Source: a virus
Strand: one strand, 5' to 3'
DNA: 50,877 bases
Virus record (IMG/VR): IMGVR_UViG_3300035698_014660
Location: 1-50,877 of that record
The notes under the pieces: model-generated
What the model saw: only the letters and a program-made list of their open reading frames with translations
The model's database searches: none
What the model was told of the DNA's origin: nothing
Made by a program: the position numbers and the translations under genes
In this document: positions 22,620-47,905 of the stretch, in pieces
How the letters are laid out: the number at the start of each line of letters is the position of its first letter
Position numbering within the stretch: position 1 is the stretch's first letter

Positions 22620-24767
22620 TTATCCTTTCTGAATCTGGGTCAATTTATCATGTAAATTCTGAATTCTATCTTCTGGGAATAGAATGCGACCTATAATAGA
22701 TCTAATATCTTTAACAAGAACATCTCCAGTATCCATATGTTTAGGACGGTGAGCAGTGAAATTAGGATCATCTACGTCATAGAAATTACGATGATCTTCT
22801 AAACCAATCATTTTTGCTGCCCAATAAGATAGTAATCCACTACCACAAGCAGGCATTCCATCCTTAGCACAGTTTCTAGGAATACCATTCTCATCGACAA
22901 TAGGACGATCACATGATATAGTATTCTTGATCATATCAAACAATCCAAATTCTCGAGCAAGTACCCATAGGTCAGATTTCATAAGGTTCGCTAATCCAAA
23001 TACCGGTTGCATTTTATGACCGACCAGAGTACCATATTTGACGTGCTCAAGAAAGGTTGAGAGGAAGTATTCACTATTGTCGGGGTACGAATTATGGACT
23101 AGAATTTTATCTATAAAGAAATTATTATTAGGTTCACAGTGATAATTAATCATTTCCTGCTCACCTTCTACAATATCAATAGTCTCAACCATCCAACCAT
23201 TATGAGAAGCTCGATCACTCGCAGAACATTCTCTAAAAGAATAAACTACATCCCCGATATTAATATCCTTTGCTTCAACCCATCCTCTATCTTTAATATA
23301 AAATGGATGTTTATCAGAAGTATATAAAGTCTTTTTACTATGTATACATCCTTCATCAAATGTAAATGATAAATTATAAGTTTTATCATGAACAGTATGA
23401 AATACCTTTTTAACTATTGTGGGTTCTATAGTTTTAGTATCAAAATTAAAAGATAACAATTGACTACCTACATCAACAGCTCCAGGTATAATAAATGATT
23501 TATCAGGAAGAAGTACTTTATTTGCTTCACAATCTACAATACACCCGGATTCTGTAAGGTTCAAAAATCCGCCCAATAATGAAATCTTATCATAATGATG
23601 AGCCATGGTTAAAGCTTCCGAATACGAAGACATTATAGATAAGAACATCATATTCCTACCACAAACCCAAGCATCTAATTGTTTTAGACCTTTAGTTGTG
23701 CCTGTAGTAATTTCAGCATTCTTATCTATCAACATTGAATTAGGATCAATTCCTTGAACCAATGTTTCAATATCAAATATTTTCAAAGGAATATTTAAAA
23801 ACTCAGTTACCTTAGTTATTGCAATTTCTTCAGCATCTTGTCCACGATGACCATATTTAAAATGACATGCTACAATATTTTCATATCCAGCATATTTCAA
23901 CATAGCCAAAGTTAAAGATGAATCAAATCCACCAGAAGCACATACCACACAAAGTTCTTTAGTTTCTTCATGTGATTTAACATTGCTATCCCATGTCTGA
24001 GTTCTAAATCTTGGAGAATATTTAATGTCTCTAACAAATCCTGAATCCAAATCTATAGACTTAATATATCCGCCTGATATATAATGATGGTACCAGTCTT
24101 CCCATAAACACATTCCGTCACGAGGACAGTCTGTAATTTGGTGGACTATCTCACCAAGACAATCATTATCAGATGCTAGAAAATATCCAACTCCACGGAT
24201 ATAACATTGTGCTAACGGTTTAAAATCGCTAATCAAATACATACGATCTTGAACTACATCGTACATAATTCCAGCGACTCCACCAGAAATACGCTCCATT
24301 GTTTCTTTAATATTCTTTCCAGTCGTCATATAATCAGCAACAACTGCTTCAGAATCTATATGAGTACTGTATTCATATCCTTTTTCTTCAGCAGCTAATT
24401 TAATTTGATTATAAATAGGCTGAGATATTGCTCCATTATGAACGAATACACAATCATCGTTTGCAATAGGTTGCATATTTATTTTAGTAGTAGGAGGCTC
24501 TTGTTCTGGAGCAGCACGGCAAATTGCAATTAACACATCACCAATATTAATTGGATTGTTTTGCAATTTATCTAATACTTCAAGTCTAATTTCTGAATAA
24601 GGTTCTACCCATTTGTGAGTATCAACCACTCGTTCAGATCCACTTCTTCTAATAATAGTAAATCCGAATCCATCAGTACCACGATTTTCTGCAGAAGCAA
24701 ATAATGTGTCAAATACTTCAATATCAGGAACACTCTCTCTCGCAATGAAACCAACTAATCCACACAT
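22620..24767 (-). CDS. GAT-QueC fusion (archaeosine-type synthase) containing a mini-intein
   Basis: The start is set at the internal ATG (24767), because a class II glutamine amidotransferase needs MCGLVGF with Cys exposed after Met removal; the ATG at 24785 would bury it. Neither start has a clear Shine-Dalgarno. N-terminal GATase domain: C2, NRGTDGFG, HNGAIS. QueC domain: PP-loop CASGGFDSS (about 276-284), then FKYGHRGQDAEE, VCGRNMMFLS and the TESG-SYPDN active segment, which equals the QueC xYSGYPD motif. C-terminal Cys 619, 633 and 641 are likely zinc ligands. Asparagine synthetase shares GATase and SGGxDS but lacks the YGxR and YPD signatures. Crenarchaeal GAT-QueC makes archaeosine from preQ0, and phage homologues modify phage DNA. 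A 151-residue intein (C409-N559) interrupts the QueC domain; spliced length is about 564 residues. Confidence 0.9.
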   Translation of the reverse strand: MCGLVGFIARESVPDIEVFDTLFASAENRGTDGFGFTIIRRSGSERVVDTHKWVEPYSEIRLEVLDKLQNNPINIGDVLIAICRAAPEQEPPTTKINMQPIANDDCVFVHNGAISQPIYNQIKLAAEEKGYEYSTHIDSEAVVADYMTTGKNIKETMERISGGVAGIMYDVVQDRMYLISDFKPLAQCYIRGVGYFLASDNDCLGEIVHQITDCPRDGMCLWEDWYHHYISGGYIKSIDLDSGFVRDIKYSPRFRTQTWDSNVKSHEETKELCVVCASGGFDSSLTLAMLKYAGYENIVACHFKYGHRGQDAEEIAITKVTEFLNIPLKIFDIETLVQGIDPNSMLIDKNAEITTGTTKGLKQLDAWVCGRNMMFLSIMSSYSEALTMAHHYDKISLLGGFLNLTESGCIVDCEANKVLLPDKSFIIPGAVDVGSQLLSFNFDTKTIEPTIVKKVFHTVHDKTYNLSFTFDEGCIHSKKTLYTSDKHPFYIKDRGWVEAKDINIGDVVYSFRECSASDRASHNGWMVETIDIVEGEQEMINYHCEPNNNFFIDKILVHNSYPDNSEYFLSTFLEHVKYGTLVGHKMQPVFGLANLMKSDLWVLAREFGLFDMIKNTISCDRPIVDENGIPRNCAKDGMPACGSGLLSYWAAKMIGLEDHRNFYDVDDPNFTAHRPKHMDTGDVLVKDIRSIIGRILFPEDRIQNLHDKLTQIQKG
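23091..23543 (-). other. Mini-intein (Hint domain, no endonuclease) in GAT-QueC
   Basis: 151 residues from Cys (TGT, 23541-23543) to Asn (AAT, 23091-23093). Block A is CIVDCEANKVLLPD. Block B has TSDKHPFY with the conserved Thr and His. Blocks F/G are EPNNNFFIDKILVHN, with the penultimate His and terminal Asn, followed by Ser as +1 extein residue. It sits between TESG and SYPDN, inside the conserved QueC active segment. All splicing residues appear intact. The space between blocks B and F is too short for a homing endonuclease. Confidence 0.93.
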
Positions 24768-24812
24768 AAAATTATTTTCAATCATGTTTGAGTTAAAATT
24801 TAAATAAATCTT

Positions 24813-32055: not shown

Positions 32056-34851
32056 CTAATAATTGTTCATCATAATTCGTTCTAATATCCCAGATGATCT
32101 AGTTTCATCTAAAATACCATCAACCAGGTACAACTTCGGACTACTAAATGCTAATGCTAACAACCAAGATTCACACGCAGGCACCATTTCAATAGATGTC
32201 AATGCATATTGAGTACTGGATCTATCATCTAATAACCTCCAAGATGTATTACCAACTCTCATCATTTGAGACACAATACATTCATAGTGAACTAATAACA
32301 TATTATTGTAATCAGAATAAATCTTAAATAATTTCATAATAGCTTGATCATAAGATGAAAGCCATTTGCCTGAATTATGGAAAATTTTTCTAACACGTAC
32401 TAAATCATTAGCAATATCTTGTTGCTGATCATCAGATGAATCTTTATTCAACTTAGCAACGCCTGAAGTATGGAATGTTCGAAGTACTAATTGAGTAGAC
32501 ACTTCCCCAATCGCTTGAGATGCAATAATGCCAATATAAGGGGAATGTAATATTTCATTAGAAGTACCATAACATTTTTTACATATTTTTGGATTCTTAC
32601 AAAATATAGGAGATCTCACATGAACAACATGACCTACATATTTATCATAGTTTTTATAATCAATTAAATCATATTTAGGAGATCCATCTTTATTTTCTCC
32701 GATTACATGCCATCTTCCAATAAGGGCATGAGCCAGTTTCATTCCATCTATATCATGGGAGTCTGCAGGAATAGATATAGAAAATGTATCTTCAGTTCCA
32801 CAATCATCGCATTCTTCATCGAGTTCTAAATTAACACTGGAATACACTAATTTTCTGGTAAGATAACCAGATACTCCAGTATTTAAAGCAGTATCAAGTA
32901 ATCCCTTTCTAGATCCATAACATGAATTGAAAAATTCTTTTTTCTCTAATCCATCAATTAATGAACTTTGAATGGGGTCCTTGATAATCTCTCCGGAAAA
33001 ATTAGAAATAAATCCTCGAGCAAGTACAATTTGAAGAGCCTGATCCCATGATCCGCGAGATCCCGACTCAATAAATTTATAATACTTAAACGAATCTCTA
33101 ACTTTTTGCAATACTTCCGGACTTTGTAATAATTCAAATTGTTTATTCCATTCCAACTCAGGATTAAACACTTCATCCCGAACGCTTTTAAGAGACGATA
33201 CATCCATCCCGGATAAAGACATAGTAGAACCATACAAAGTAGTATATTTAAATCCAAGATTTTTAATTTTATCCAATATGTCAAGAACTACATCTGGTGG
33301 ATGAGTTCTAGCAATATCATTTAAAATAATTCTTAGATCTGTTTTAGTTACTTGTTTATTAAATATAGGCCAAGAATCTGGCAAACACTTATTAAACAAT
33401 GCTCTACCACGCATAATCTGATGCCCATCTACATCAACATAGTCATCAGTATTTTCAGTTAATAAATATATACCAAGGACTATATCTTGACTAACTCCAA
33501 GAATCAATTTACCTGTGGTAGGAGAAAGAATGTTAGCAGACGCCATCATTTTTTCTTTGCATTCCTCAATAGCTTCTTCACTAAGAGGTCTATATATTGC
33601 CATTTGATCTCCATCAAAATCAGCATTATATGGTTCACATACCAAAGGATGAATACATATGACATATGATTTATTCAATTTCACATAAAATGAAAGTAAT
33701 CCCATTCTATGTAAAGTAGGTTGCCGATTCAACATAACCATCTGGCCATTACATGCTTCTTCAGCTATATCATATAACCTATAATCCTCAGTAGTAATAC
33801 AATCAGCAATTTCAGTTATCGCAGAATCATATCGTTTAAATGCTCGTTTTTCCAGCAGGAGATTAGCAATATCCATTTTGAATAATTCTAATGCCATAAT
33901 ATATGGAATTGAACATTCATCTAAAGTCAAAGTAGGATCAGGTGAGATAACTGCCCGACCTGAAAAATCTACTCGTTTTCCGAGAATAGATCCTCTAATC
34001 AACCCCGACTTCTTGCTAAGTAATTCAAATATAAAATTATATAATTCGTCTATCTTCTCTTGAAGATTTCGAGTTAGTATATCAGTAACCCCTTCAATAT
34101 CAGTTATTTCTAAACTGTCACATGTATTGCTCAATACAAATTGAAGAATTTTCATTATATATGGAACTAATTTATCTCGTCTTTGAACATCTTTACGTCT
34201 AGATACTGGCCTAAATTCAGGAGGAGATACAATTATGTTAGACATGAAAAATTTGTCCATAGAATTACGGACAAATTTCCATTTCAAATCTGTTGCATCA
34301 AATGGACAATCTTTATCATCTGGATCAAGTGTGCATCTAAACATAATCAAATCATGCAACCCCTGAAGTGTTGCTGGCCAAAAGTCATGATCAACAGGCG
34401 CCACAAATTCTTCGTCTGGGTCAGATTCACGATCTTTGAATTTCTTAACAATAGGTATAAATCGTTTTTGATCTTTATCAAAATAATACCCATGAAGTTT
34501 AGCATCAAATATCATATCATGACAAATAGTCTTAAACGTAGTCTTACCGGCTTTAATAATAATGTGCCGGACAATAGGGTTTAGAACAGGAAACGGTAAA
34601 ACAATTTTTGCAAACCGTTTTCTTCTTTCACTAGAATATGCAATATCCACACCACAAGAATTACATTTCTGCCCTATCATTGACCTTCCCCAATATATAG
34701 AGCACCCACATGTTGCAGTTTTTACCGGACCAAATATTTGCTGAGAGTATAACCCATCTGACTGAAATCCTGATTTAGCATATATTTTAGCGCTAGTTAT
34801 CGCAGGGAGTTCTTCAGCTGAGATATCAACATTTAAAAAGTCAAGTTTCAT
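32056..34851 (-). CDS. DNA-directed RNA polymerase beta' subunit (single chain)
   Basis: 931 residues, against 1407 in E. coli. The N-terminal zinc site is CGCSIYW...CNSCG (about 49-68). RGSILGKRVDFSGRAVISPDP (about 282-302) precedes RQPTLHRMGL (about 380-390), and the catalytic triad is in NADFDGDQM (about 409-417). A second Cys cluster is CDDCG...CKKCYGT. SQAIGEVSTQLVLRTFH near residue 790 is the trigger-loop/bridge end region. The subunit is therefore complete for catalysis in one chain. The order beta'-then-beta in transcription is the reverse of the bacterial rpoB-rpoC operon. Confidence 0.95.
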   Translation of the reverse strand: MKLDFLNVDISAEELPAITSAKIYAKSGFQSDGLYSQQIFGPVKTATCGCSIYWGRSMIGQKCNSCGVDIAYSSERRKRFAKIVLPFPVLNPIVRHIIIKAGKTTFKTICHDMIFDAKLHGYYFDKDQKRFIPIVKKFKDRESDPDEEFVAPVDHDFWPATLQGLHDLIMFRCTLDPDDKDCPFDATDLKWKFVRNSMDKFFMSNIIVSPPEFRPVSRRKDVQRRDKLVPYIMKILQFVLSNTCDSLEITDIEGVTDILTRNLQEKIDELYNFIFELLSKKSGLIRGSILGKRVDFSGRAVISPDPTLTLDECSIPYIMALELFKMDIANLLLEKRAFKRYDSAITEIADCITTEDYRLYDIAEEACNGQMVMLNRQPTLHRMGLLSFYVKLNKSYVICIHPLVCEPYNADFDGDQMAIYRPLSEEAIEECKEKMMASANILSPTTGKLILGVSQDIVLGIYLLTENTDDYVDVDGHQIMRGRALFNKCLPDSWPIFNKQVTKTDLRIILNDIARTHPPDVVLDILDKIKNLGFKYTTLYGSTMSLSGMDVSSLKSVRDEVFNPELEWNKQFELLQSPEVLQKVRDSFKYYKFIESGSRGSWDQALQIVLARGFISNFSGEIIKDPIQSSLIDGLEKKEFFNSCYGSRKGLLDTALNTGVSGYLTRKLVYSSVNLELDEECDDCGTEDTFSISIPADSHDIDGMKLAHALIGRWHVIGENKDGSPKYDLIDYKNYDKYVGHVVHVRSPIFCKNPKICKKCYGTSNEILHSPYIGIIASQAIGEVSTQLVLRTFHTSGVAKLNKDSSDDQQQDIANDLVRVRKIFHNSGKWLSSYDQAIMKLFKIYSDYNNMLLVHYECIVSQMMRVGNTSWRLLDDRSSTQYALTSIEMVPACESWLLALAFSSPKLYLVDGILDETRSSGILERIMMNNY

Positions 34852-34860
34852 ATAAATAAC

Positions 34861-35523
34861 TTACCTTCCGGTTGCAAGTTTTTCCGATAATACTTTGGAT
34901 ATTGATGTAGTCAATTCATCTTCTGTTACTTTATTTTCACACTCTTTCATTCTCTCATCTAATGATGCTAATACTTCTTCAAATTGCTTAATCATTACTT
35001 CCACATGAGCATCAGAAGCAGCATCTATTTTAGTTTGAAACAATGACATAACTTTAGGAACAACTTTTGTTTTAAATTCTTCAACTACAATTTCTTGAAT
35101 TTTCGGAATCATCATTTCTGTCAAATGAGTATCTGACACTGCTGCGACATAATCAGTAATTGCTGTGGTTACTGCAATATTAACTATACCATCAAGTTTA
35201 GATTCCATAACATGTATCTGATTTACTGGAATATTTTCAGGGACAAAAGGCAATTTCTTTGGGCAAATTCTAAACCATCCAACTGGAACTGCAGAATGAT
35301 ATTTAACTTTAAGCCCTGAAAATTTTTTAAAATATACCATAAATACTTCTTCTGAAAAATTGCAAGTACTTATATTTGAAAACATTAACATAAGAGTTTC
35401 TAAAGTATATGCGTGACCATCAAGCATACTATCTATTAATAGTTCAAGATCCGCCATGTCTTTTGCTGCGTGTGAATTTTCTTGCATGTGAAATTCCCAA
35501 TTAGGAATAATTAATTCTTCCAT
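34861..35523 (-). CDS. Unknown coiled-coil protein upstream of RNAP genes
   Basis: 220 residues with an AAGGAG site before the ATG. The N-terminal half is globular with FRICPKKLPF. Residues about 110-215 are amphipathic helix rich in Glu, Lys and Val (MIPKIQEIVVEEFKTKVVPKVM). It overlaps the E2-like gene upstream by 23 bases and precedes beta' by 9. It may serve either the polymerase or the conjugation module. No motif identified. Confidence 0.55.
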   Translation of the reverse strand: MEELIIPNWEFHMQENSHAAKDMADLELLIDSMLDGHAYTLETLMLMFSNISTCNFSEEVFMVYFKKFSGLKVKYHSAVPVGWFRICPKKLPFVPENIPVNQIHVMESKLDGIVNIAVTTAITDYVAAVSDTHLTEMMIPKIQEIVVEEFKTKVVPKVMSLFQTKIDAASDAHVEVMIKQFEEVLASLDERMKECENKVTEDELTTSISKVLSEKLATGR

Positions 35524-36235
35524 CGGACCGCTCCTTAATTAAATTGTAAAACTTATCAAAATGACGTTCAGAATTATACATTCCACATAATGTTACACAT
35601 GACAATAATGACTTCAACAGTGATAAATTTTGTGCAGTTACATATAATCCTATTATTTGTGGATCTATACAGAATCTTTTAGTGTCTGGATTAATATGAG
35701 GGTGAATTGCATCTCCTAATACATCAAGAATTAATTTACTATTTGGCAACCAGAATGAATTAATTACATATCCCATGGATTTAACATATTCTTCATCCAC
35801 ATCGTATATATATTTTCCGAATACAACTTTATTAATATAAATCGGATGTTGCCATATTATACGATAATCGTCAATTATAAATCCATCATTCTCTATATTC
35901 CATAACTTATTTGATCCTTCCTCACTGGTTTGATATTTGCAATTACTAATAGACATTTTTATTTTTAATAAAGTAGCAATCAACTTAAATGGGTTTTGAA
36001 TCATCAAAGTTCTTTTTACTACAAAATCTTTAACATCATCTATTATTTTAGAATCATTATCACCATCAATTATTGAAATTATTACTAACTCATTGTCAAC
36101 TATATTTGAACTATATGAACATTGGGAAGTTATAGGAGCTAATATAGTAATCGTCAACGAATTAGTATCTTTAAAATAATTCCAATGATTGATTTGATAT
36201 TCTTTAAGTAACTTAGATAATTCAATTTTAATCAT
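35501..36235 (-). CDS. E2 (UBC)-like protein with HPHI...C motif
   Basis: 244 residues. Residues 178-189 read HPHINPDTKRFC; in ubiquitin-conjugating enzymes and their bacterial relatives the active Cys follows an HPN/HPH motif by about 7-10 residues. The following helical part (YVTAQNLSLLKSLLSCVTL, then MYN) resembles the region after the active site of bacterial E2-like proteins, which often ends in YN. The first 120 residues are of unknown fold. The usual CLG after Cys is CID here, so it could be divergent or inactive. Two genes upstream lies a short E1-like gene, supporting a paired function. Confidence 0.5.
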   Translation of the reverse strand: MIKIELSKLLKEYQINHWNYFKDTNSLTITILAPITSQCSYSSNIVDNELVIISIIDGDNDSKIIDDVKDFVVKRTLMIQNPFKLIATLLKIKMSISNCKYQTSEEGSNKLWNIENDGFIIDDYRIIWQHPIYINKVVFGKYIYDVDEEYVKSMGYVINSFWLPNSKLILDVLGDAIHPHINPDTKRFCIDPQIIGLYVTAQNLSLLKSLLSCVTLCGMYNSERHFDKFYNLIKERSDGRINYS

Positions 36236-36237
36236 TG

Positions 36238-36525
36238 TTAAGCTGATGAAGGGATTGGACGAATGTTAATAGTTACTGAAGGTGAAGCAGTATTATCAAT
36301 ATGAATAACAGCAATGAGTTCTTTATGAGGCAAATATTTACAAAAGTTTAAAATCTCTTTTTCTAATATTTGTCTCATCGCCTCCGTGGTGGTGTGCCCA
36401 TCTGAAATATCAATATCAGCAGGATTACTCTCCTTAAGAAAATCACTGCATATGCAAACATTATCAAATTGCATATCTCCTAATGACTGTGCAATTTCAT
36501 CTATATTGCAAATAGTTTCAGGCAT
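36238..36525 (-). CDS. Small unknown protein between E1-like and E2-like genes
   Basis: 95 residues with AAAGGAG upstream. Helical middle (residues about 45-65), then VIHIDNTASPSVTINIRP, a strand pair, and a short tail (IPSSA). It is the right size for a ubiquitin-like protein, but I see no clear beta-grasp pattern and no terminal GG. The stop is followed after 2 bases by the ATG of the E2-like gene. Confidence 0.5.
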   Translation of the reverse strand: MPETICNIDEIAQSLGDMQFDNVCICSDFLKESNPADIDISDGHTTTEAMRQILEKEILNFCKYLPHKELIAVIHIDNTASPSVTINIRPIPSSA

Positions 36526-36538
36526 AGTTAACTCCTTT

Positions 36539-37066
36539 TTAAACAGGTGGTGGTGTAGTGAGAATAGTATCTAACATATAAACATATCTTTCAATAAAAG
36601 TTTCTTGATACACATTACAAATAAAATTCATAGCAATTGTTAATGCTACATCATAATAAATTGGATCTTGGGCTAACACATATTCTATATACTGTTCTGG
36701 TTCATATTTTTTTCTACAATCAATAACAAAAATTGGACCATCCAATGATAATCGAATATGTGACGAAATAATATCTGTTTTATTATCTCGACAATCAATA
36801 ACAAGTCCTGCTGAAAATCTTTTAGAATTAGTGATTTTAAGGTGTCTAGAATAAACTCGAACATCACAATCAAGACTGTCAATAACTGCTGAAAGAGCAT
36901 CAACTTTAGAAACACCAACAAATGACTTGGTATATGGAAATTGACACGTATTTACTACATCATAATCATATATAAATAACTTATGACATAATTCATATTG
37001 AGATAATTTAAATGCTAATGCTGACCCGATAAGACCACATCCAACAATGTGAACTCTTAACGACAT
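36539..37066 (-). CDS. E1/ThiF-like adenylating protein, short
   Basis: 175 residues. VHIVGCGLIGSALAFKL (residues 5-21) is the Rossmann ATP-binding loop (GxGxxG), followed by YDYDVVNTCQF (D34, D36, N39) and a GVSK at 51-54, the order of ThiF/MoeB/E1 proteins. VIDCRDN near residue 93 equals the DCxDN motif that contacts ATP and Mg. It is shorter than full ThiF (about 250) and replaces the usual NLNR arginine finger region by NTCQ, so activity may differ. It overlaps the upstream 118-residue gene by 10 bases. Confidence 0.75.
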   Translation of the reverse strand: MSLRVHIVGCGLIGSALAFKLSQYELCHKLFIYDYDVVNTCQFPYTKSFVGVSKVDALSAVIDSLDCDVRVYSRHLKITNSKRFSAGLVIDCRDNKTDIISSHIRLSLDGPIFVIDCRKKYEPEQYIEYVLAQDPIYYDVALTIAMNFICNVYQETFIERYVYMLDTILTTPPPV

Positions 37067-37413
37067 TTAGAAATATCCACAAGGGCACGAACAACTTCTT
37101 GATTAGTATCTTCGTATGTATAAACTTCTACACCTTTTAAATCTATTTTATACTCATCAAATACTGAATCAATAGTATCTTTAATTGCTTGCCAACTGAT
37201 TTTTGAAAATTGAAACACCACACAATTACCCAAATTTCCATCAGTTATATCAAACGATGAACCATACGGCCCAGTTGCCTTCCCAGAAGACATTATATTG
37301 ATTCCTTCATCTCGCAATACTTTAACTAGGTCATTCAGTTTGGATGATTGATCTCGTGTTTTTTCATCATCTACAGTTTTAAACGACATAGGTTTCTGAT
37401 TTTTACGCGGCAT
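37057..37413 (-). CDS. Unknown small protein before the short E1-like gene
   Basis: 118 residues: a basic start (MPRKNQKP), two helices (DQSSKLNDLVKVLRDEG) and strands with GVEVYTY near the end. Overlap with the E1-like gene suggests a linked role. No family assigned. A GGAGTG site precedes the ATG. Confidence 0.55.
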   Translation of the reverse strand: MPRKNQKPMSFKTVDDEKTRDQSSKLNDLVKVLRDEGINIMSSGKATGPYGSSFDITDGNLGNCVVFQFSKISWQAIKDTIDSVFDEYKIDLKGVEVYTYEDTNQEVVRALVDISKCR

Positions 37414-37424
37414 AACACACTCCT

Positions 37425-37928
37425 TTACATAAATAAGTCATAGGTTCCCTTAACAAAATCTATCGTAGTAAACGATATAAATGGCATAATTTGATACTGG
37501 TCGCCATTAGCAATTCTGCGCTTCGAATTCATATATGATACTACATCCAAATCATTATCAATATAATAAACCTTCTCAATTTCAGGAAATCTCGCATCAT
37601 TTCCTTGTACAATGTTGGAAATGATTTGAACTTTCATATCAAGATAGTCTTCTATTGTTTTAGATGCATCCCATCTTAACATAGGCGAAGTGATAACATA
37701 TTTAGGCCTTAACCCATGAAAAGCACAAACTGTTTTAATAACAGGAATATCAATTCTCGGTCTAGCCGTTAAAATAGACCACCGAATATCATATTCATGC
37801 GGGTTTATATATGGGCCATCCTTAAATGCAGATATTGTATTCTTCCAATATCCCGACCAGTGATTTTGCCCAACTAGAGTTCCATCAAAGTCGAATAAAT
37901 AAAGACAAAATCTAGATTTATTTATCAT
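37425..37928 (-). CDS. HAD-superfamily phosphatase-like protein
   Basis: 167 residues. LYLFDFDGTLVG (residues 9-20) is HAD motif I with the nucleophile and acid Asp (13, 15). WSILTARPR gives the motif II Thr, and VYYIDNDLDVV supplies the acidic motif IV. The helix with SKTIEDYL provides a Lys. Phage HADs of this size include polynucleotide 3'-phosphatases and nucleotidases. The gene overlaps sbcC by 4 bases (ATGA), so a DNA-end cleaning role alongside the nuclease is likely but inferred. Confidence 0.75.
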   Translation of the reverse strand: MINKSRFCLYLFDFDGTLVGQNHWSGYWKNTISAFKDGPYINPHEYDIRWSILTARPRIDIPVIKTVCAFHGLRPKYVITSPMLRWDASKTIEDYLDMKVQIISNIVQGNDARFPEIEKVYYIDNDLDVVSYMNSKRRIANGDQYQIMPFISFTTIDFVKGTYDLFM

Positions 37929-40492
37929 TTAGTGCACCTAAATATTTTATCACATTCAGAATTATTAGCAATCAAGTGAGTAACTAATGTAACATTTCCA
38001 CCAGCAGATAATTTTTTAAGATGCCTACAAAATTGTGCGGAATTTTCATCATCTAATGAATCTAATACTTCATCCATAAAAGTTATATTAAATGATTTCT
38101 GATACATGTTCTCTACCAATAATCTCATGGATCTCATGCAACATACATCAACTAGACGTTTTTCTCCGCCAGACAATAATTTATGAGCATCTGTACCATT
38201 TTCAAGTTGTAACACATTAACATTAAACTTTTCTCTAATTTCTCCAGATTTAGTCGTAGATGTAGTATCAAATGTTACAATATATTGACCAGGAGATATA
38301 GTTTCAAGTTCAGTGCGAATAGCATTATTAAGAAATGGAATTGAACTATCAATAAGCATAGAAGGAATTCCATGATCAGAAAATGCATGCTTCCAAAATT
38401 CAAAAATCTTCAACGTACGATTCAATCCAATTAACTCATTAGTAGTTGAATCTAATTGAGTAGTACATTCCAAAATTGCATCTTGTGCAATACATATACA
38501 TGATTCTTCGACCACAGTATGTTCTAATTCATTTAACCGTGCCGAAGATATATGAATAGCATTTTCGAGCAAAGATATAACATTATGAGAAGTAACTAAT
38601 AAATCTCTAATTTCAATTAAGTGAATTTTACGATTACGCATTTGACTTAATTTACTATCAAATTCCTTTTTTCTATTATTAACATCTTTACGTTTCAAGT
38701 CAATTTTAGAATTACTATCCTCAAGATCTTTATCTTTTTGGCATTCAATCGTAGCTATTATTTGTTCTTTAGATGTGAGATACTCTTCGTGGTATCCATG
38801 AATAACTTTATCTAATTCAGATTGTATATTATCTAATTCATCTTGGCATTTTTGCATATCCACTTTATATTCAGTTATTTGATTATCACCATCATTGATA
38901 ACTTTAATACGAGTGGCGTCAGTATCTTGACGAAATTTTCTAAATTCTGATTGCAATTTCGTCATAACCAAATCTAATTCAATCTGTCTATCTGCAATAT
39001 CATTATTTCGTTTATCAATATCTATCCGAATATTATTTTGCCATTCAGTAAATTGAGATTTACTTACTTCAAAATCATTTGTCAATGTAGATATTTTATC
39101 AGTTAATGATGTTCTATCAATTATCTTACTATTACGAATAGCATTTATTTTATTAATAGCATCTTCATCTTTAACTTCCTGTCCACATGTAGGGCACGGG
39201 GCAGAATCCTTGCAACATAATGAATTGATCTCATTAGTCAATGCATCACATCTAGATGCTAAATCTTTAATCTGACGTTTGATACCTGCCATCTGGTCAA
39301 ATACAGTTTTATGTTTGTCTTTAAGAGCCAAACTTATATTTACAACTTCAACATTCAAAGCCTTAATATCAGCATCAGTCACAGCATTAGATTCTGATTG
39401 CTTAATTTCATGTTGCTTATCAGTTAAGGCTGTAGTTAATTGAGTTTTCTGATTGTTTGTCTGAATTAAACATTTATCCATGTCCGTTTGTATAGTATGC
39501 AATTGAGATCTTAATGCTAACACATTATCGTGCTGCTTTGATATACATACACTTTTCTTCTTATCAAATACAGACTCGGCAGCAGATAATTGGTGTGTAG
39601 TATCTGATAATGCTTTAGTTTCAATTCCTCGATTTACTACGTTATGAGTACTTTCAGTAGCAGAAAATTCAAACTCTAATTCAGAAATTGAATTCATTAT
39701 ATCATTAATAGCATCAACAAGTCTGTCTAATTCATCATTATCATAGTGAATATCTTTAATACTATCTTGTTGTTCTGCTAATTCTTTTTGTTTAGAAAAA
39801 ACTTCTTTACGTTGTTGATCTCTTTCACTATTAAGCTGGGCATTCTGATTGGCCACTAATTGTTCTGCTGATACTAAATTCTTGTGATATTCTTCTAATC
39901 TAGTTTCCAACTTAACTGCATTAATAGTTGTCTCATTAATTTGAGTAGATACCTGAACAATCTGCTCGGAAGTTCGCTTATAATAATCACGATATTCATG
40001 AGTTTGAAGTATATTATGAAAAATTTCTTTCTGTTGACCATCCGTTAAGCATGTAAAAAAATCTTTTACATTTTGACTAAAATAAACAGAATTCAAAAAT
40101 ACTTCTTTAGGAACTAACGTAGTTGCTATTAATTTATAAGTATCGGTTGCAGTTTTTCTAGAAATATCTATTCCATCTCTCATAAATATTAGACTACTTT
40201 TAAACTCTTTATGTTTAAAATATCTAGATATTTTATATGGAACATCATCAATAAAGAAATCTATAATGATCTCTAAATTCTTCCCAACCCGTTTATTAAC
40301 TAAGTCAGGAATAGTAAACCCTTCAGCTGTTGTCCCATACAACCCAGCACAAAATGCCATTAAATGAGTACTTTTACCAGAACCATTTGGACCAGTAATA
40401 GCAACTAACTGATCATCAGGAAATTCTAATTCCGACTCATCATATCGTCTAACATTTTTAAATGCTAACTTGGTAAACCGTATATGTTGCAT
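37925..40492 (-). CDS. SbcC/Rad50-like recombination ATPase (T4 gp46 homologue)
   Basis: 855 residues. Walker A GPNGSGKST (34-42), a zinc hook CPTCG (about 432-436) at the tip of long coiled coils, ABC signature LSGGEKR (about 769) and Walker B FMDEVLDSLD (about 808). This domain order is diagnostic for the Rad50/SbcC SMC-like family. With SbcD it processes double-strand ends and in T4 makes the 3' single strands for recombination-dependent replication. T4 gp46 is 560 residues, so this one has longer coils, nearer to bacterial SbcC. It is 4 bases downstream of sbcD. Confidence 0.95.
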   Translation of the reverse strand: MQHIRFTKLAFKNVRRYDESELEFPDDQLVAITGPNGSGKSTHLMAFCAGLYGTTAEGFTIPDLVNKRVGKNLEIIIDFFIDDVPYKISRYFKHKEFKSSLIFMRDGIDISRKTATDTYKLIATTLVPKEVFLNSVYFSQNVKDFFTCLTDGQQKEIFHNILQTHEYRDYYKRTSEQIVQVSTQINETTINAVKLETRLEEYHKNLVSAEQLVANQNAQLNSERDQQRKEVFSKQKELAEQQDSIKDIHYDNDELDRLVDAINDIMNSISELEFEFSATESTHNVVNRGIETKALSDTTHQLSAAESVFDKKKSVCISKQHDNVLALRSQLHTIQTDMDKCLIQTNNQKTQLTTALTDKQHEIKQSESNAVTDADIKALNVEVVNISLALKDKHKTVFDQMAGIKRQIKDLASRCDALTNEINSLCCKDSAPCPTCGQEVKDEDAINKINAIRNSKIIDRTSLTDKISTLTNDFEVSKSQFTEWQNNIRIDIDKRNNDIADRQIELDLVMTKLQSEFRKFRQDTDATRIKVINDGDNQITEYKVDMQKCQDELDNIQSELDKVIHGYHEEYLTSKEQIIATIECQKDKDLEDSNSKIDLKRKDVNNRKKEFDSKLSQMRNRKIHLIEIRDLLVTSHNVISLLENAIHISSARLNELEHTVVEESCICIAQDAILECTTQLDSTTNELIGLNRTLKIFEFWKHAFSDHGIPSMLIDSSIPFLNNAIRTELETISPGQYIVTFDTTSTTKSGEIREKFNVNVLQLENGTDAHKLLSGGEKRLVDVCCMRSMRLLVENMYQKSFNITFMDEVLDSLDDENSAQFCRHLKKLSAGGNVTLVTHLIANNSECDKIFRCTK

Positions 40493-40496
40493 ATAT

Positions 40497-41528
40497 TTAA
40501 TCTTCCTTAACTTCTCCAGAATTTATACCAATTAACGAGGAAACACAATTCATATATTCTTCAGCCTCATCTCCACTAATTTCATTTACTTCTAAATATT
40601 TTCGTAGTATTTCCGTTTGATTCATTGCTGTCGATATTCCTCTATCTTGTAATTCAACTTCATGATCTTCCAATATAATCACTGATGAATTAGAAATATC
40701 TAAATCTCCCTTTGAGCGTTTCCTAACTCGAACTTTATGACCCTGAGATCTAAGTTCCTCTGCTTCTTTTAATACATCAGCAGGATTTTCAGTATCATCG
40801 TCAATAATCAATTCACGATATTCTAAAAATCCAGTTATACCTATACTTTGAACTTGCAGTGTTTCTGTATCATATAACAAACAACGTTTCTTTTCATTTT
40901 TATCATTCCAACTAGTATGAATTGGACTTCCTGTATAATACATTTCACAATTATGTCGTGATAAATGTTGAGGTGTATGGTAATGCCCAAGCAATACTAA
41001 TTTCCACTTAGATATATTTTGCATATTCACAGATGAAGCTATTGATATTCCTGATTGCAATATAGCCTCAGATATACCTAAATGAGATAATAAAATATCT
41101 CCCCCATCATGCTCAGCAATATCATTAACCATATGATTGGAATATGGAATTATTGTAATATTACCTACTGTCGTAGGAGATTCATAACAATTAACATTAG
41201 GATATCCTGAAAATAATGAAATAGTGGAAGTTTGAAAATCTCCAACACTTGATAAATCATGATTACCTGATAATATAGTAAATTGAAGATTAGAAAATTC
41301 TAATATCAAATCTTTAAATGCATTAATTGAGTCAGTATATATTATGTCTTTATCATTACACAAATCTCCAAGAATATCAATATGTTCAACATCATTTTCA
41401 ACTGCAAATATAAATAATTTTTTTAACACATTAATCAAATCATGTAATCGTAATGGAAGACCATCCTCAGCAATTACATCATCTTTATAACATGATAAAT
41501 GAATATCACCAATAGCAAGACGTTTCAT
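40497..41528 (-). CDS. SbcD/Mre11-like nuclease (T4 gp47 homologue)
   Basis: 343 residues. Calcineurin-type metallophosphoesterase motifs in order: GDIHLS (7-12), GDLCND (about 49-54), SGNHDL (about 90-95), ILLSHLG and LLGHYHT (about 185). These supply the two-metal site of Mre11-type nucleases. The C-terminal part is a capping/SbcC-binding domain of mixed helices. Size matches T4 gp47 (339). A 13-bp hairpin lies between it and the JAMM gene. Confidence 0.94.
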   Translation of the reverse strand: MKRLAIGDIHLSCYKDDVIAEDGLPLRLHDLINVLKKLFIFAVENDVEHIDILGDLCNDKDIIYTDSINAFKDLILEFSNLQFTILSGNHDLSSVGDFQTSTISLFSGYPNVNCYESPTTVGNITIIPYSNHMVNDIAEHDGGDILLSHLGISEAILQSGISIASSVNMQNISKWKLVLLGHYHTPQHLSRHNCEMYYTGSPIHTSWNDKNEKKRCLLYDTETLQVQSIGITGFLEYRELIIDDDTENPADVLKEAEELRSQGHKVRVRKRSKGDLDISNSSVIILEDHEVELQDRGISTAMNQTEILRKYLEVNEISGDEAEEYMNCVSSLIGINSGEVKED

Positions 41529-41552
41529 TTAATAATCTCCAACTAATGCAAG

Positions 41553-41589
41553 TCATTGGTCTCCTAATATTTATTCAGGAGACCAATGA
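41553..41589 (-). other. Strong hairpin without U tract between JAMM and sbcD genes
   Basis: A perfect 13-bp stem (41577-41589 with 41553-41565) and an 11-base loop. No U run follows on the minus strand. It could be a weak terminator, an RNA processing site or a stability element setting different levels of JAMM and SbcD/SbcC. The sbcD Shine-Dalgarno (GGAG) follows shortly after. Confidence 0.75.
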
Positions 41590-41605
41590 TTCACATCTTT
41601 AATAA

Positions 41606-42367
41606 TTAATAATCAGGGCGAATTCCCGTATTAAGAAAATGTTCCCATTCAGTCACATCTGTATCATCAATATCATTTTCATCACCATAGATAGATTCTG
41701 CTTGGGCTGAAGCATATTGATTCATATTTTGCCCAGATGGTGATGGTTTATATGCTGGATAAGGACTACCAGCAACAGCAGGATTATAAGGTTTACCAGT
41801 ATATGCGTGACCATAACGATAAGAAGCTATAGTTGTTGCAGCAATTTTAATTTTATCCAACTGAAGGGGATCAATCTCAACAGCAGGATATGAATATTCT
41901 ATTTTAACCGGTAATCTTAAACGACCAACCATTTCTACAACTTCCAGATTCACTTCTCCGCTAATAAAATTTTTATTTTCATATAGCAGACTGAATAGAT
42001 GATTCCCATTAATAGAACCATCATCTGTCCCAGAAAAATGCTTACACCCAGTAGGATGCTTATGAACTACTCCATTCCATACTGTATTTGGATCATCAAG
42101 TCCATCTTCTTTAAAATCTATTGATGCTATTGACACAACTTGGTCTGGAATCATAAAGTCAGGAGATAACACTATAGTATTATCTACAATATCTCCATGA
42201 AGATAAAGCCCAAATTCCACATTAGGACACTTTTTATCAATTTCTCGCATCACATATACTAATGATGCAGGAATTTCTACAGTAATATCTTTAATTCTTG
42301 CAAGAGATGGAGTTGTCCATACTGTAGGACCATGTTTATACGCTTTAGGTAACTTAATTGCTGTCAT
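41606..42367 (-). CDS. JAMM/JAB-domain metalloprotease (deubiquitinase-like)
   Basis: 253 residues from the ATG at 42367. The longer frame back to 42505 would give a spurious hydrophobic tail and overlap the E1 gene; the chosen ATG is one base after its stop. The JAMM motif is complete: E51 (VEFGLYLHG), H102 and H104 (VVHKHP), then seven residues, S112 and D115 (SGTD), that is H-x-H-x7-S-x-x-D. JAMM enzymes cut isopeptide or peptide bonds after ubiquitin-like proteins, or process Ubl precursors. A Pro/Tyr-rich disordered segment (about 190-220) and acidic C-terminus follow. The adjacent E1-like gene strongly supports a Ubl-related function. Confidence 0.88.
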   Translation of the reverse strand: MTAIKLPKAYKHGPTVWTTPSLARIKDITVEIPASLVYVMREIDKKCPNVEFGLYLHGDIVDNTIVLSPDFMIPDQVVSIASIDFKEDGLDDPNTVWNGVVHKHPTGCKHFSGTDDGSINGNHLFSLLYENKNFISGEVNLEVVEMVGRLRLPVKIEYSYPAVEIDPLQLDKIKIAATTIASYRYGHAYTGKPYNPAVAGSPYPAYKPSPSGQNMNQYASAQAESIYGDENDIDDTDVTEWEHFLNTGIRPDY

Positions 42368-42368
42368 T

Positions 42369-43079
42369 TTATACACTTCTTTCTTGTTGAATAGTAACTG
42401 CTTGATTTGTAGCTTGAGATACAAGGTTAAGAGAATTAAGAATATTCCCACAATCAAAAGTAAGAATACCCTCAAAATGTGAAGGGGCTTCAATTCCTGC
42501 AACAAAAGTATGAGGAATCAAAGTAGTCATGACTGCAATAGTAGCAATCATTTGAGCTGGTGCAAAGAATGATGGAGTGACTGTATAACCATCTGATTGA
42601 CCCCATACTTTTCTAGATCCAGGATTACCATCTATAGTAACTTCCATTCCATCATATCCAAGTTTCCATTTTTTACAAGAGAATCGATTTATATCATCAA
42701 AAATATCATCTCGACAATCAAATATAACAGACTCATTACTAGGACGAAATTTAGTATGGTCAGTAAATTTTTCTTGTATAACACTCACATGTTGTTGTGG
42801 ACGCCGTTCAAGAATTAACTTAGATAATGCAACTACTTTTGGAGATCCAATATCAGTCACCTTAAACGGGGTTCTGTTTAAATTAGATACTTCAATCACA
42901 TCATCATCAAACATACATATATTCCTTACGGCTCCAGATAATGCTAAATTAAATGCAACCCAAGATCCTATTCCTCCAACTCCAATAACATAAGCAGTAG
43001 GAATATTAACAAGACTTAATGTTTTTTGCCTATCTGTAGTGGAGTTAACTCCAAAATTCCACATATTTTGTTCATCCAT
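42369..43079 (-). CDS. E1/ThiF-like adenylating enzyme
   Basis: 236 residues. AYVIGVGGIGSWVAF holds the ATP-binding loop GVGGIGS (33-39). FDDDVIEVSNLNRTPF gives the acidic residues D58-D60 and the NLNR arginine (R69), and GSPK supplies K81. IFDCRDDIF (about 118-125) is the DCxD motif of ThiF/MoeB/E1 proteins. The C-terminal part is mostly buried strands and Gly/Thr-rich helix. All ATP and substrate adenylation residues appear intact. It overlaps the E2-like gene by 8 bases and directly precedes the JAMM gene. Confidence 0.9.
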   Translation of the reverse strand: MDEQNMWNFGVNSTTDRQKTLSLVNIPTAYVIGVGGIGSWVAFNLALSGAVRNICMFDDDVIEVSNLNRTPFKVTDIGSPKVVALSKLILERRPQQHVSVIQEKFTDHTKFRPSNESVIFDCRDDIFDDINRFSCKKWKLGYDGMEVTIDGNPGSRKVWGQSDGYTVTPSFFAPAQMIATIAVMTTLIPHTFVAGIEAPSHFEGILTFDCGNILNSLNLVSQATNQAVTIQQERSV

Positions 43080-45261
43080 TAGGAGACTCCGTAGTTAATG
43101 CTTTGATATTAGCATACACACTATTAGATATTTGTGAAGCAATAATTTCACTCTCCACCATAGTACCATCTATTATAGTGGAAGGTACATCTGGAGTCAT
43201 ATTATTCAATTTAGAATGTGAACAATGGGTAGAACCACGGTCATGATCATACATTTCTTTCCATGTATCAAAATTAACAGTATCATCATTATGAATCTTC
43301 AAATTTCTGCACATAATATCAATTCCAAATGTACCGCATCTAATCAACTTAGATGCTTTAATAATAATAGCAGCTTGGACATGAGTAATTGGTATGCATT
43401 TAAAGTTTCGACCTTTAATATAGAAATAATTTCCACAATGAATAGTGACAAAAGATTGACCATTAGAAAGCATCCATAATGGATGATCCATACGTTGTAA
43501 CACTGATCTAGCAGTTAAATCAGAACTTGTATTACTTCTAATTATATCACGAACTATTCTCATACATGCAACTTCAAATTCAGAATTCTTATTCAAATTT
43601 ATAAATCCAAAAGTAGATGGATTATTCATTGTATTATCACTATAAACAACTAATTGATGATCACTATTACGAACTGATGAGCTTGGTCGAGGTACAGGAG
43701 TAGGAGTAGATGGTAAACCAGAAACAGTTGGTTGATCTGATATTCTTGTTACTTTTCCTGGAGTAATAGATATGTCATGGTTATCCATTATAGTTGACCC
43801 TATAATTGGAACACAGTTCTTCTTCAATTCATTTAGCAGATCTGAACTATATGCACTATCCATATTTATAATACCAAGAATATCTGTTGCTGCTGTAAGA
43901 TCAGCCAGTAATATATCTCGTCCTTGATATAATCTAATTTCTCCGAGATTCCCAAGACATACACTATGTTCTTGAACATTAGGATGATTATTTGATCCAG
44001 CAGCATGTGTTACACTCATACGTCCACGGCTTGATATATATAACCTATCAATATGAATACTTCTCTGGGAAGTATCAATTTTATAAATTTTCCTATTATG
44101 GCATAATTTAAACGGAACTAAATTGACATCTTTTTTCCAATAAGTATAGTCCTCATTTAAAAATGAATGATTAGTCAATTCATTGGGAGGAACAATAGTC
44201 CATCCATTTTCATAAAATGCTGTAAAACTAAGAAGACATTCATCAAACGCTTCATGTTTCAATTTATCGACCCGATTTCTCATAATACCAAACATATCTT
44301 CAATAAACTTCTCGAAGAATGTTTGAAACTCGCCACGATGATTATATCTTGTAGTTAACTCAGACAATACATTTTCAAATATCCCACGTTGAGCATCATA
44401 AAACTTATCAGTATCAAATGGATCACAAGCAGAACATTGCATTACTTTTATATGTTCTAGTTGATTACTACTCAAAGTCGTAGACACCAACGCTGCCGCC
44501 GTATCTTTGAGAAATTGATCTGAATTTACAGTATTTAGAATATCATCATCATCAGCAAAGATATTAAATAATTCTACTAATACCTTTTTAAGCACAATTC
44601 TACCATGCTTTTCCATTATTGTTTTAATTACTTGCCACCGAATTAACATTTCTCCATCAGCAGAAATAATTGCTAACAATGAATCAGTTTTTCCAGCAAA
44701 TATAAACCGTCTAATTCTAGGTAACCGCTGAAGTATAAAACTCTCAGATCTCAACAAATGTAATAATTTACTTTTAGATATAAAACTACCACTAAATCCC
44801 CGCATTGTTGGAAAAATAGTCATATCTCTAAATGAAAAAGAATCACTTGATATAATACGATCTGGACTATATAAATTATGGATTGGAGCAGTAGTAGGTA
44901 AATCCTCATTACATATATCATGTAATATGGTTTTTAACTGAACTAGTCCAAATGAGCAAAATGTAACTATTTCCAATCCACGGGTCATCAACGCCTTATA
45001 GGCAGATACTGGGTCATCACTTGTGTTGGTTATTTCTTCCCAATCCACACATAATCTATTATATCCATTTCTACGATGACCTCGCAAAGATTGACATACG
45101 CATATAGAATTAACTAAATAACTTAATCTTTCATCAGTTAAAATCTCAGACAATATTGAATTCAGTTCCTGGAGCTCACTTTGATCTATTATGTTAAGTT
45201 CAGCTCTGGACATGTGTTCGCCAATATCATAATCTCGAGTATTTACTAACTTTGACAGCAT
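43072..45261 (-). CDS. Large protein with E2-like HPN...CLG motif
   Basis: 729 residues, with AAGGAG before ATG. Residues 426-437 read HPNVQEHSVCLG; ubiquitin-conjugating enzymes carry HPN followed some residues later by the active-site Cys, often in CLG. The strands before it (IHIDRLYISSRG, SVTHA) fit the E2 beta sheet. The first 400 residues are helical with Cys-rich spots and may be a separate domain. A Pro/Ser linker (about 520-535) leads to a third region with CGNYFYIKGR. It overlaps the E1-like gene by 8 bases. The motif match is short, but its E1 and JAMM context makes it credible. Confidence 0.55.
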   Translation of the reverse strand: MLSKLVNTRDYDIGEHMSRAELNIIDQSELQELNSILSEILTDERLSYLVNSICVCQSLRGHRRNGYNRLCVDWEEITNTSDDPVSAYKALMTRGLEIVTFCSFGLVQLKTILHDICNEDLPTTAPIHNLYSPDRIISSDSFSFRDMTIFPTMRGFSGSFISKSKLLHLLRSESFILQRLPRIRRFIFAGKTDSLLAIISADGEMLIRWQVIKTIMEKHGRIVLKKVLVELFNIFADDDDILNTVNSDQFLKDTAAALVSTTLSSNQLEHIKVMQCSACDPFDTDKFYDAQRGIFENVLSELTTRYNHRGEFQTFFEKFIEDMFGIMRNRVDKLKHEAFDECLLSFTAFYENGWTIVPPNELTNHSFLNEDYTYWKKDVNLVPFKLCHNRKIYKIDTSQRSIHIDRLYISSRGRMSVTHAAGSNNHPNVQEHSVCLGNLGEIRLYQGRDILLADLTAATDILGIINMDSAYSSDLLNELKKNCVPIIGSTIMDNHDISITPGKVTRISDQPTVSGLPSTPTPVPRPSSSVRNSDHQLVVYSDNTMNNPSTFGFINLNKNSEFEVACMRIVRDIIRSNTSSDLTARSVLQRMDHPLWMLSNGQSFVTIHCGNYFYIKGRNFKCIPITHVQAAIIIKASKLIRCGTFGIDIMCRNLKIHNDDTVNFDTWKEMYDHDRGSTHCSHSKLNNMTPDVPSTIIDGTMVESEIIASQISNSVYANIKALTTESPNG

Positions 45262-45274
45262 TTATAATCTCCTT

Positions 45275-45306
45275 AAAAAAGGGCCCGAATTAAAAAACTC
45301 GGGCCC
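45275..45306 (-). terminator. GC-rich rho-independent terminator after the winged-helix gene
   Basis: An 8-bp perfect stem, TCGGGCCC (45299-45306) with GGGCCCGA (45281-45288), loop of 10 bases and a run of six U (45275-45280) on the minus strand. It closes the gene ending at 45322. The next gene's AAGGAG site follows at once. Confidence 0.92.
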
Positions 45307-45321
45307 AAAATAACCTTACAA

Positions 45322-45885
45322 TTACATCGCGGCTTTGTTATGCTTCTGGATAGTAAGCTGGATGATACGACCTTCAGGGAAAACAATATCAGATTCGGTA
45401 TTGATTTCAGTGTTAGACACAGCATCCTTCATAACATAAGTCTCAATGCCATTACTATGAGCAAAATTAACAATAGACGAGATAGTCTCTGCAGGAGTTT
45501 CAACCAAATACCGTTGGGTATTGTTTATCACCAAGAGATACTGAGTATTGTTCAGCTCAATAACATTACCAGAAGGATCCGTAATTCTGAATCCGGTACT
45601 AACCACTGTAACATTATAACCTTCTGCAACTTGAGAAACCACCTGTGGGACAGAAACATCATCTGACGCCGTAGCTGGCGAAATAGAAGAGGCTTCGGTC
45701 GCAGCAGTAGAATAGGTATCATAACGCCCATCAGTATCAAGAGTCAGAATGCCTTCACTTACCAGGGCAGCAATTTCGGCCTTAATCGCTACAGTAGCTT
45801 TGCTTTTGCCGAGACCATTTCTGACGATGCTGTTGGTGGTGGAATTGGCATTGGCCGCGACGAAATTAACAATAGTATTACGCAT
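45322..45885 (-). CDS. Winged-helix-like protein with possible beta-grasp C-terminus (candidate ubiquitin-like)
   Basis: 187 residues from the ATG at 45885, chosen over TTG at 45900 because a GGAG site is correctly spaced. Residues 1-55 look like a winged helix (TVAIKAEIAALVSEGILTLDTDGRYD). A Thr/Ser/Ala linker follows. Residues about 120-187 alternate strands and one helix: QYLLVINNTQRYLVET, ETISSIVNFAHSNGI, ETYVMKD, then IVFPEGRIIQLTIQK. This order resembles ubiquitin-like beta-grasp proteins of bacterial E1/E2/JAB operons. There is no terminal GG (it ends NKAAM), so the Ubl idea is a hypothesis. The gene is unusually GC-rich for the window and has its own terminator and probable promoter, pointing to high expression. 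Confidence 0.5.
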   Translation of the reverse strand: MRNTIVNFVAANANSTTNSIVRNGLGKSKATVAIKAEIAALVSEGILTLDTDGRYDTYSTAATEASSISPATASDDVSVPQVVSQVAEGYNVTVVSTGFRITDPSGNVIELNNTQYLLVINNTQRYLVETPAETISSIVNFAHSNGIETYVMKDAVSNTEINTESDIVFPEGRIIQLTIQKHNKAAM

Positions 45886-47219: not shown

Positions 47220-47432
47220 CTACATAATTCTTAATGGGAAAGAAACGAAGGACAACATTACACTCATAGATTCTTTATCTATATGATAATATGTATTCCG
47301 ACATGTAATACTTGGATCATTATAATCTTTGCCTTCACGTTTCAAGTCAAGACCGATCTTTTTAATCCAATTAGTAGTATTATATTTTTCTAAAGGAATA
47401 TGAATACATGAATCTCGAGTGAATTTTATCAT
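47220..47432 (-). CDS. N-terminal ORF of the XPB-like helicase (ribosomal frameshift candidate)
   Basis: 70 residues (MIKFTRDSC...SFVSFPLRIM). Alone it has no recognisable fold, but it is the size of the domain that precedes the core in UvsW-like helicases. It starts one base into the stop region of queD and ends at TAG 47220-47222. Slipping back one base at TTTCCCA (47235-47241) joins it to the helicase frame just after SFP. Confidence 0.6.
   Translation of the reverse strand: MIKFTRDSCIHIPLEKYNTTNWIKKIGLDLKREGKDYNDPSITCRNTYYHIDKESMSVMLSFVSFPLRIM
47235..47241 (-). promoter_or_regulatory. Candidate -1 frameshift slippery site TTTCCCA
   Basis: On the minus strand the heptamer T-TTC-CCA is in the correct phase for -1 slippage (X XXY YYZ), and the stop of the short frame follows four codons later. 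After the slip the ribosome reads IKNYVACELVDQ and the helicase core. I see no strong downstream stem-loop. A one-base sequencing deletion would look similar. Confidence 0.55.
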
Positions 47433-47905
47433 TATTCAACAAAATTACTTTTATATGGTTTAGTGGTAGGATCTTTTTTATTAAAATCTGCATATGATGT
47501 AGGAGTCTCATATACTCTGACATTAGTAATAATACTACCCAACTCGTTGCGTAATTTATTATATATCCACAAAGCCATATATTCAGCAGTGGGAGAAGAT
47601 TCAACAACTACAATTTTCATAGTAGGATTATCTAATTGGAATTTCACCATCACATCATCATCTTGACATATCATGCATGCATGATCCAGCTTATCAACTA
47701 TAACATTTTTTATAGCAGAGCTAAGGTTTGAAAAATCTATAATCATTCCATCTTGTGGATCTGTAGCATTTGACAGAATTGGTCCTTCGACAGTGACTTG
47801 TAATTTATACCTATGACCGTGAAGATTTTTACATAATCCTTCATGCAGATATAACCGATGAGCCATATCCCATTCTACTTCTTTAGTAACACTATGTATC
47901 ATCAT
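47432..47905 (-). CDS. queD: QueD, 6-carboxy-5,6,7,8-tetrahydropterin synthase
   Basis: 157 residues. The zinc ligands are H16 (AHRL) and H29/H31 (LHGH), with the catalytic Cys C25 (CKNLHGH). Later come LDHACM, SPTAE and ETPTSY, the Asp/His and Glu residues of the QueD/PTPS active site. The Cys spacing is typical of QueD, not sepiapterin-type PTPS. QueD is the second step of preQ0 synthesis from GTP. With GAT-QueC it implies deazaguanine synthesis by the phage. FolE, QueE and a transglycosylase are not in this window. It overlaps the unknown gene upstream. Confidence 0.93.
   Translation of the reverse strand: MMIHSVTKEVEWDMAHRLYLHEGLCKNLHGHRYKLQVTVEGPILSNATDPQDGMIIDFSNLSSAIKNVIVDKLDHACMICQDDDVMVKFQLDNPTMKIVVVESSPTAEYMALWIYNKLRNELGSIITNVRVYETPTSYADFNKKDPTTKPYKSNFVE

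Follow-up and report, generated by a model that had tools for sequence, protein, structure and literature searches.

A phage-borne gene cassette predicted to carry out reversible ubiquitin-like protein tagging

Bacteria are known to employ ubiquitin-like (Ubl) conjugation in host defence and in stress responses. Bacterial gene sets of this general kind have already been described (PMC1779556; PMC13373217), and the presence of such a set in a virus raises the question of whether phages run protein tagging of their own. We analysed a 50,877-nt virus record, IMGVR_UViG_3300035698_014660 (positions 1–50,877; hereafter the window), a 50.9 kb fragment which also encodes T4-type baseplate proteins, a tape-measure protein, the large terminase subunit and a two-subunit RNA polymerase. 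An earlier sequence-only reading had proposed six open reading frames as an E1/E2/JAMM/Ubl cassette, and all six were found where it had placed them, on the minus strand; it had overlooked a terminator-like hairpin after the Ubl gene (45281–45306) and a probable second Ubl gene (36238–36525).

The genes fall into two groups, both on the minus strand. Module A consists of Ubl-A, E2-A, E1-A and JAMM, in that order, while module B is a divergent second module in which E1-B, the probable Ubl-B and E2-B are mutually adjacent. Overlapping starts and stops had been thought to link E2-A, E1-A and JAMM, which is true of E2-A and E1-A (8 nt of overlap) but not of E1-A and JAMM, which are separated by 1 nt. 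Between the modules lie SbcD (40497–41528), SbcC (37925–40492) and, next to module B, a HAD-like protein (37425–37928) and the 118-aa P4 (P0004; 37057–37413), all on the minus strand. P4 was considered as a further Ubl and rejected, having no similarity to Ubl families. Downstream of E2-B, a conserved linker gene of 220 aa (34861–35523, minus strand) precedes the phage RNA polymerase beta' gene (32056–34851, minus strand), which lies directly downstream of module B and was recognised by tblastn to phage beta' subunits.

This arrangement recurs in other phages. The order Ubl, E2-A, E1-A, JAMM, SbcD, SbcC, HAD, P4, E1-B, P2 (the probable Ubl-B), E2-B, linker and RNA polymerase beta' is shared by L006 (a 141 kb contig), L007 and L008 (64 and 193 kb, counted once because their sequences are identical) and L009 (102 kb), with small extra open reading frames within it in some of them, so that the proposed interleaving with SbcCD beside the phage RNA polymerase is a conserved feature. 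A fifth contig, L011 (236 kb), keeps both modules, arranged differently and again with RNA polymerase beta' next to module B; in L087 and L089, too, beta' is found close to module B. The label of jumbo phage is inferred from relatives, which occupy contigs of 64–236 kb, usually above 100 kb, the window itself being a fragment. A scan with the single E1-A sequence (P0006) gave no match; when an alignment served as the query, 78 viral loci were recovered. A neighbour with the JAMM motif lay within 1.2 kb of the E1 gene in 58 of the 61 loci with full flanks, as against 1 of 965 background open reading frames, which together with the synteny in independent phages excludes a chance association.

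Elsewhere in the window, a 721-aa glutamine-amidotransferase and QueC protein (22620–24785) contains two QueC stretches in Pfam and a HINT-type segment (residues 457–516, Pfam, below cut-off), possibly an intein-like insertion. There is also a QueD/PTPS-like gene (47432–47905; Pfam 5e-31), and QueC and QueD together suggest a 7-deazaguanine modification pathway. In L011 a GATase-QueC gene (11470–13158) is located between JAMM and E1-B.

The enzymes of the cassette can be recognised to different degrees. E1-A (42369–43079, minus strand) is a ThiF/MoeB-like adenylating enzyme (Pfam ThiF, 5e-19) and E1-B (P0003; 36539–37066, minus strand) a short ThiF-like protein (1.7e-8), both above the Pfam cut-off, as the proposal of two E1-like proteins required. 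All 12 sequences of the E1-A alignment conserve Arg17, GxGGIG, Asp58, Asp60, Asn66, Arg69, Lys81 and Asp124, in keeping with the adenylation-site residues named for MoeB (PMC12355090), so that homologues do not lack the ATP residues; a conserved crossover-loop cysteine is absent from the same alignment. The E1-A profile retrieved E1, ThiF, MoeB, MccB, Cap2 and BubCD from the PDB. E1-B retains GCGxxGS, DxD, Lys54 and DCRD in alignments. The E1-B proteins of the window's clade lack the active-site arginine of the NxxR motif and thus one residue of the adenylation set (GxGxxG, Asp, Arg, Lys, Asp) that is complete in E1-A, for which reason E1-B may need E1-A as a partner.

E2-A (729 aa; 43072–45261, minus strand) contains an E2-type domain at about residues 340–475, with HPNV (426–429) and Cys435 in the active-site motif HPNVQEHSVC (43957–43986, minus strand). 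The HPNV and the cysteine are invariant in five sequences and are followed by a conserved DSAY-type segment. In E2-B (244 aa; 35501–36235, minus strand) the corresponding residues are HPHI (178–181) and Cys189, within HPHINPDTKRFC (35669–35704, minus strand); HPN or HPH with the cysteine is found in 7/7 E2-B proteins, the window having HPH. Neither protein was matched in a Pfam search; a protein of L019 related to E2-A gave a weak match to UQ_con (E=0.004). When a joint profile of nine E2-A, E2-B and L019 proteins was compared with 177,635 PDB sequences, it retrieved almost exclusively E2 enzymes, aligned at the HPN and the cysteine (best E=0.012). The single E-values are modest, and it is the specificity of retrieval that points to an E2 fold. 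The two families also align with each other (hhalign, 92%, E 7e-7). The Ubl and E2-B alignments proved too diverse to support pattern scans. The proposed pair of HPx...C proteins therefore has, in both families, an HPN-type motif with a downstream putative catalytic cysteine, recognised by motif as well as by profile.

The predicted JAMM/JAB isopeptidase (41606–42367, minus strand) carries E51...HKHPTGCKHFSGTD, with the HxHx7SxxD motif at 42023–42064 (minus strand). Its ligand set had been described as complete, and Glu51, His102, His104, Ser112 and Asp115 are invariant in 10/10 relatives, which also answers the concern that homologues might lack these residues. The single sequence matches Prok-JAB weakly (E=0.01), and the family profile retrieved from the PDB only AMSH-type JAMM deubiquitinases.

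Ubl-A (45322–45885, minus strand) is predicted to combine an N-terminal winged helix (about residues 1–60) with a C-terminal beta-grasp-like domain (about 116–187), ending NKAA-M. Its AF2 model (mean pLDDT 74) has the order HHH-EE followed by beta-beta-alpha-beta-beta, with a confident winged helix. Foldseek matched this half to wHTH regulators over approximately 60 residues (rmsd 1.3–2.7 Å, probability 1.0), and the beta-grasp half was absent among the matches listed. There was no Pfam match for Ubl-A, and its tails in relatives are NKAA or NKAG rather than terminal Gly-Gly. By hhalign, Ubl-A was linked to small Ubl-like families of other phages (87%, E 4e-6; controls below 1.2%), stand-alone proteins of 80–100 aa at the same operon position, most ending DVAG, whose profiles found no significant ubiquitin-fold match in the PDB. 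Judging from topology, operon position, tail and profile similarity, we predict a beta-grasp-like fold for the C-terminal domain; the Ubl candidate of the sequence-only reading is thus backed by element order and by the profile link, whereas Foldseek confirms the winged helix only. In L087 and L089 the counterpart of Ubl-A has weak TGS/ThiS matches and a Rho_N domain, which would place a nucleic-acid-binding domain on the tag in two lineages. The L087 protein (8769–9257) has this domain at its N-terminus (E=1e-8) and ends AGRKG.

Directly 3' of the Ubl-A stop codon, between the Ubl-A and E2-A genes, lies an intrinsic-terminator-like hairpin with an 11-bp stem, GGGCCCGAGTTTTTTAATTCGGGCCC-T6 (45281–45306, minus strand). 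Hairpins of this type follow the Ubl gene in 12/15 relatives, compared with 5/70 other same-strand gaps, and their sequences are unrelated (Fisher p ~2e-8, a value which ignores relatedness and uses mechanical gene calls). The crAss-like sets resemble the window in this respect, with a hairpin after the Ubl gene in 17 of 21 loci as against 10 of 122; in three of the 21 the gap exceeds 1 kb, and the following gene may there have been called incorrectly. A hairpin after the tag gene fits a modifier that is required in larger amounts than its enzymes.

The probable Ubl-B (P2, P0002; 95 aa; 36238–36525, minus strand) ends PIPSSA, and its relatives end TGAA, TGTA, TDAA or VESA. In other jumbo phages (L087 and L089) the position of P2 is taken by a C-terminal extension of E1-B ending ETGAA, followed by an E2-B with HPNC. 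This extension, which resembles the P2 tails and aligns weakly with P2, suggests that P2 is a Ubl, an assignment which we favour by a modest degree. The AF2 model of Ubl-B has low confidence (pLDDT 57), profile comparison gave no link from it to other Ubls, and further scans for E1-B fusions returned the same contigs only.

Looser cassettes are found in crAss-like and Flavobacterium phages. In crAss001 and other Steigviridae, Ubl-, E2-, JAB- and ThiF-like genes lie between primase and uracil-DNA glycosylase, with an exonuclease also among the neighbours. Like the window, the ThiF-JAB sets of crAss-like and Flavobacterium phages cluster a Ubl-like protein, an E2-like protein with H.H...C, a JAB and a ThiF; they differ in having an N-terminal Ubl that finishes in KSG plus an extension and an E1 with a CSY-type cysteine, and no duplicate module is seen. 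The crAss-like E2-like family has weak profile links to the E2 of the window. Existing annotation of these sets goes no further than thiamine biosynthesis, metalloprotease and hypothetical proteins. In Flavobacterium phage Fpv2 (L132, 2168–4460) an endonuclease gene on the opposite strand appears to interrupt the JAB gene (gp56/gp54).

The closest cellular operons were those of Ignavibacteria MAGs (L104, L105 and L110), which share the Ubl-E2-E1-JAMM order, the JAMM motif HRHPxG, a Ubl ending AA or AAL and an E1 up to 43% identical. They differ in being stand-alone cellular operons with no winged helix on the Ubl and no module B. The PRTRC plasmid cassette has a ThiF-family gene beside Ubl/E2/JAB-type genes. 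Kinship with it, suggested earlier, was rejected, as PRTRC_ThiF reached 16 bits where the cut-off is 145 and no other PRTRC model matched; a plasmid search gave generic ThiF matches only. The same four neighbouring components occur in the bacterial Ubl-E2-E1-JAB operons of type 6d and relatives (Iyer et al. 2006, PMC1779556). Type 6d E2s lack a conserved histidine before the cysteine (PMC1779556), whereas here the HPN is kept, the set is phage-borne, the Ubl has a winged helix, there is a second module and no counterpart of the 6d helical protein was recognised.

Given that the same chemistry serves host defence (PMC10097602, PMC13373217), the phage set, and above all its deubiquitinase-like JAMM, could disturb Ubl-type immunity such as CBASS Cap2 or Bil, either by offering a decoy for the tag or by stripping off the conjugates that the host has made. 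We regard this as improbable, since a complete forward pathway and the terminator of the tag are kept in very different phages and the cassette sits among replication and transcription genes. Defence models, moreover, match the shared ThiF domain only: this holds for the Ignavibacteria set of L110, and PADLOC matches were confined to the ThiF region. CBASS also joins E1 and E2 chemistry to a JAB, but its Cap2 is an E1-E2 fusion associated with a nucleotidyltransferase (CD-NTase in type II), whereas the phage set has separate genes and a dedicated Ubl. Bil and Bub are host operons for Ubl conjugation and removal (PMC13373217); Bil was compared by description only, and BubCD was reached in the PDB profile search only through the shared ThiF fold.

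The ThiF/MoeB similarity of the E1, the weak ThiS/TGS match of the L087 Ubl and the QueC-GATase and PTPS genes would also suit a ThiS/MoaD-like sulfur carrier which, with ThiF and JAB, feeds nucleotide or DNA modification. Every closely examined cassette, however, has an E2-type protein with a conserved cysteine, the carrier ends AA or AG instead of GG and no rhodanese is found among annotated neighbours, all of which makes this reading quite unlikely. Least probable is processing during virion assembly in the manner of lambda tail proteins I (Ubl) and K (JAB-NlpC): JAB and Ubl are known in phage tail clusters (PMC1779556), but those clusters lack E1 and E2, and the present cassette, at 35–46 kb, has no NlpC and lies far from the baseplate and tape-measure genes (4–16 kb).

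We therefore consider it likely that module A carries out reversible Ubl conjugation and deconjugation, which we infer from profiles, motifs, synteny and one structure prediction. JAMM would trim the residue or residues beyond the NKAA tail of Ubl-A and E1-A would adenylate that tail. The tag would then pass to the E2-A cysteine, perhaps straight from the adenylate since E1-A has no conserved crossover-loop cysteine. E2-A would attach it to lysines and, as no E3 was seen, would select the targets by means of its own large flanking regions; JAMM would remove the tag again. The hairpin may ensure that more tag than enzyme is made, and conjugation may tether targets to DNA, given the DNA-binding-like domain of the tag. 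Module B would form a second branch, with E1-B perhaps paired with E1-A. The neighbours of the cassette (RNA polymerase beta', SbcCD and a helicase; in crAss phages primase, uracil-DNA glycosylase and exonuclease) speak for replication and transcription targets more than for the virion target raised by the sequence-only reading, and phage proteins of these processes encoded alongside are the most plausible candidates, a proposal that we put forward tentatively. The broader picture, that phages, including the crAss-like ones of the gut, run Ubl signalling of their own and that here two Ubl branches with paired E1s place a DNA-binding tag on the viral transcription or replication machinery, is more speculative still.

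Our search of open-licence literature turned up no description of an E1-E2-Ubl-JAB cassette in a phage, which is not proof of absence. The papers searched do not report a complete set in phages or how widely it is distributed among them, nor do they describe a tag with a DNA-binding-like domain, a terminator downstream of the tag gene or a second module next to RNA polymerase beta'. Complete sets occur in viruses, apparently as core genes, and related sets in many phages suggest that bacterial viruses themselves use protein tagging, with a tag that may bring a DNA-binding domain to its target. This offers a testable function for the “thiamine biosynthesis” and hypothetical genes of crAss001 and other isolated phages.
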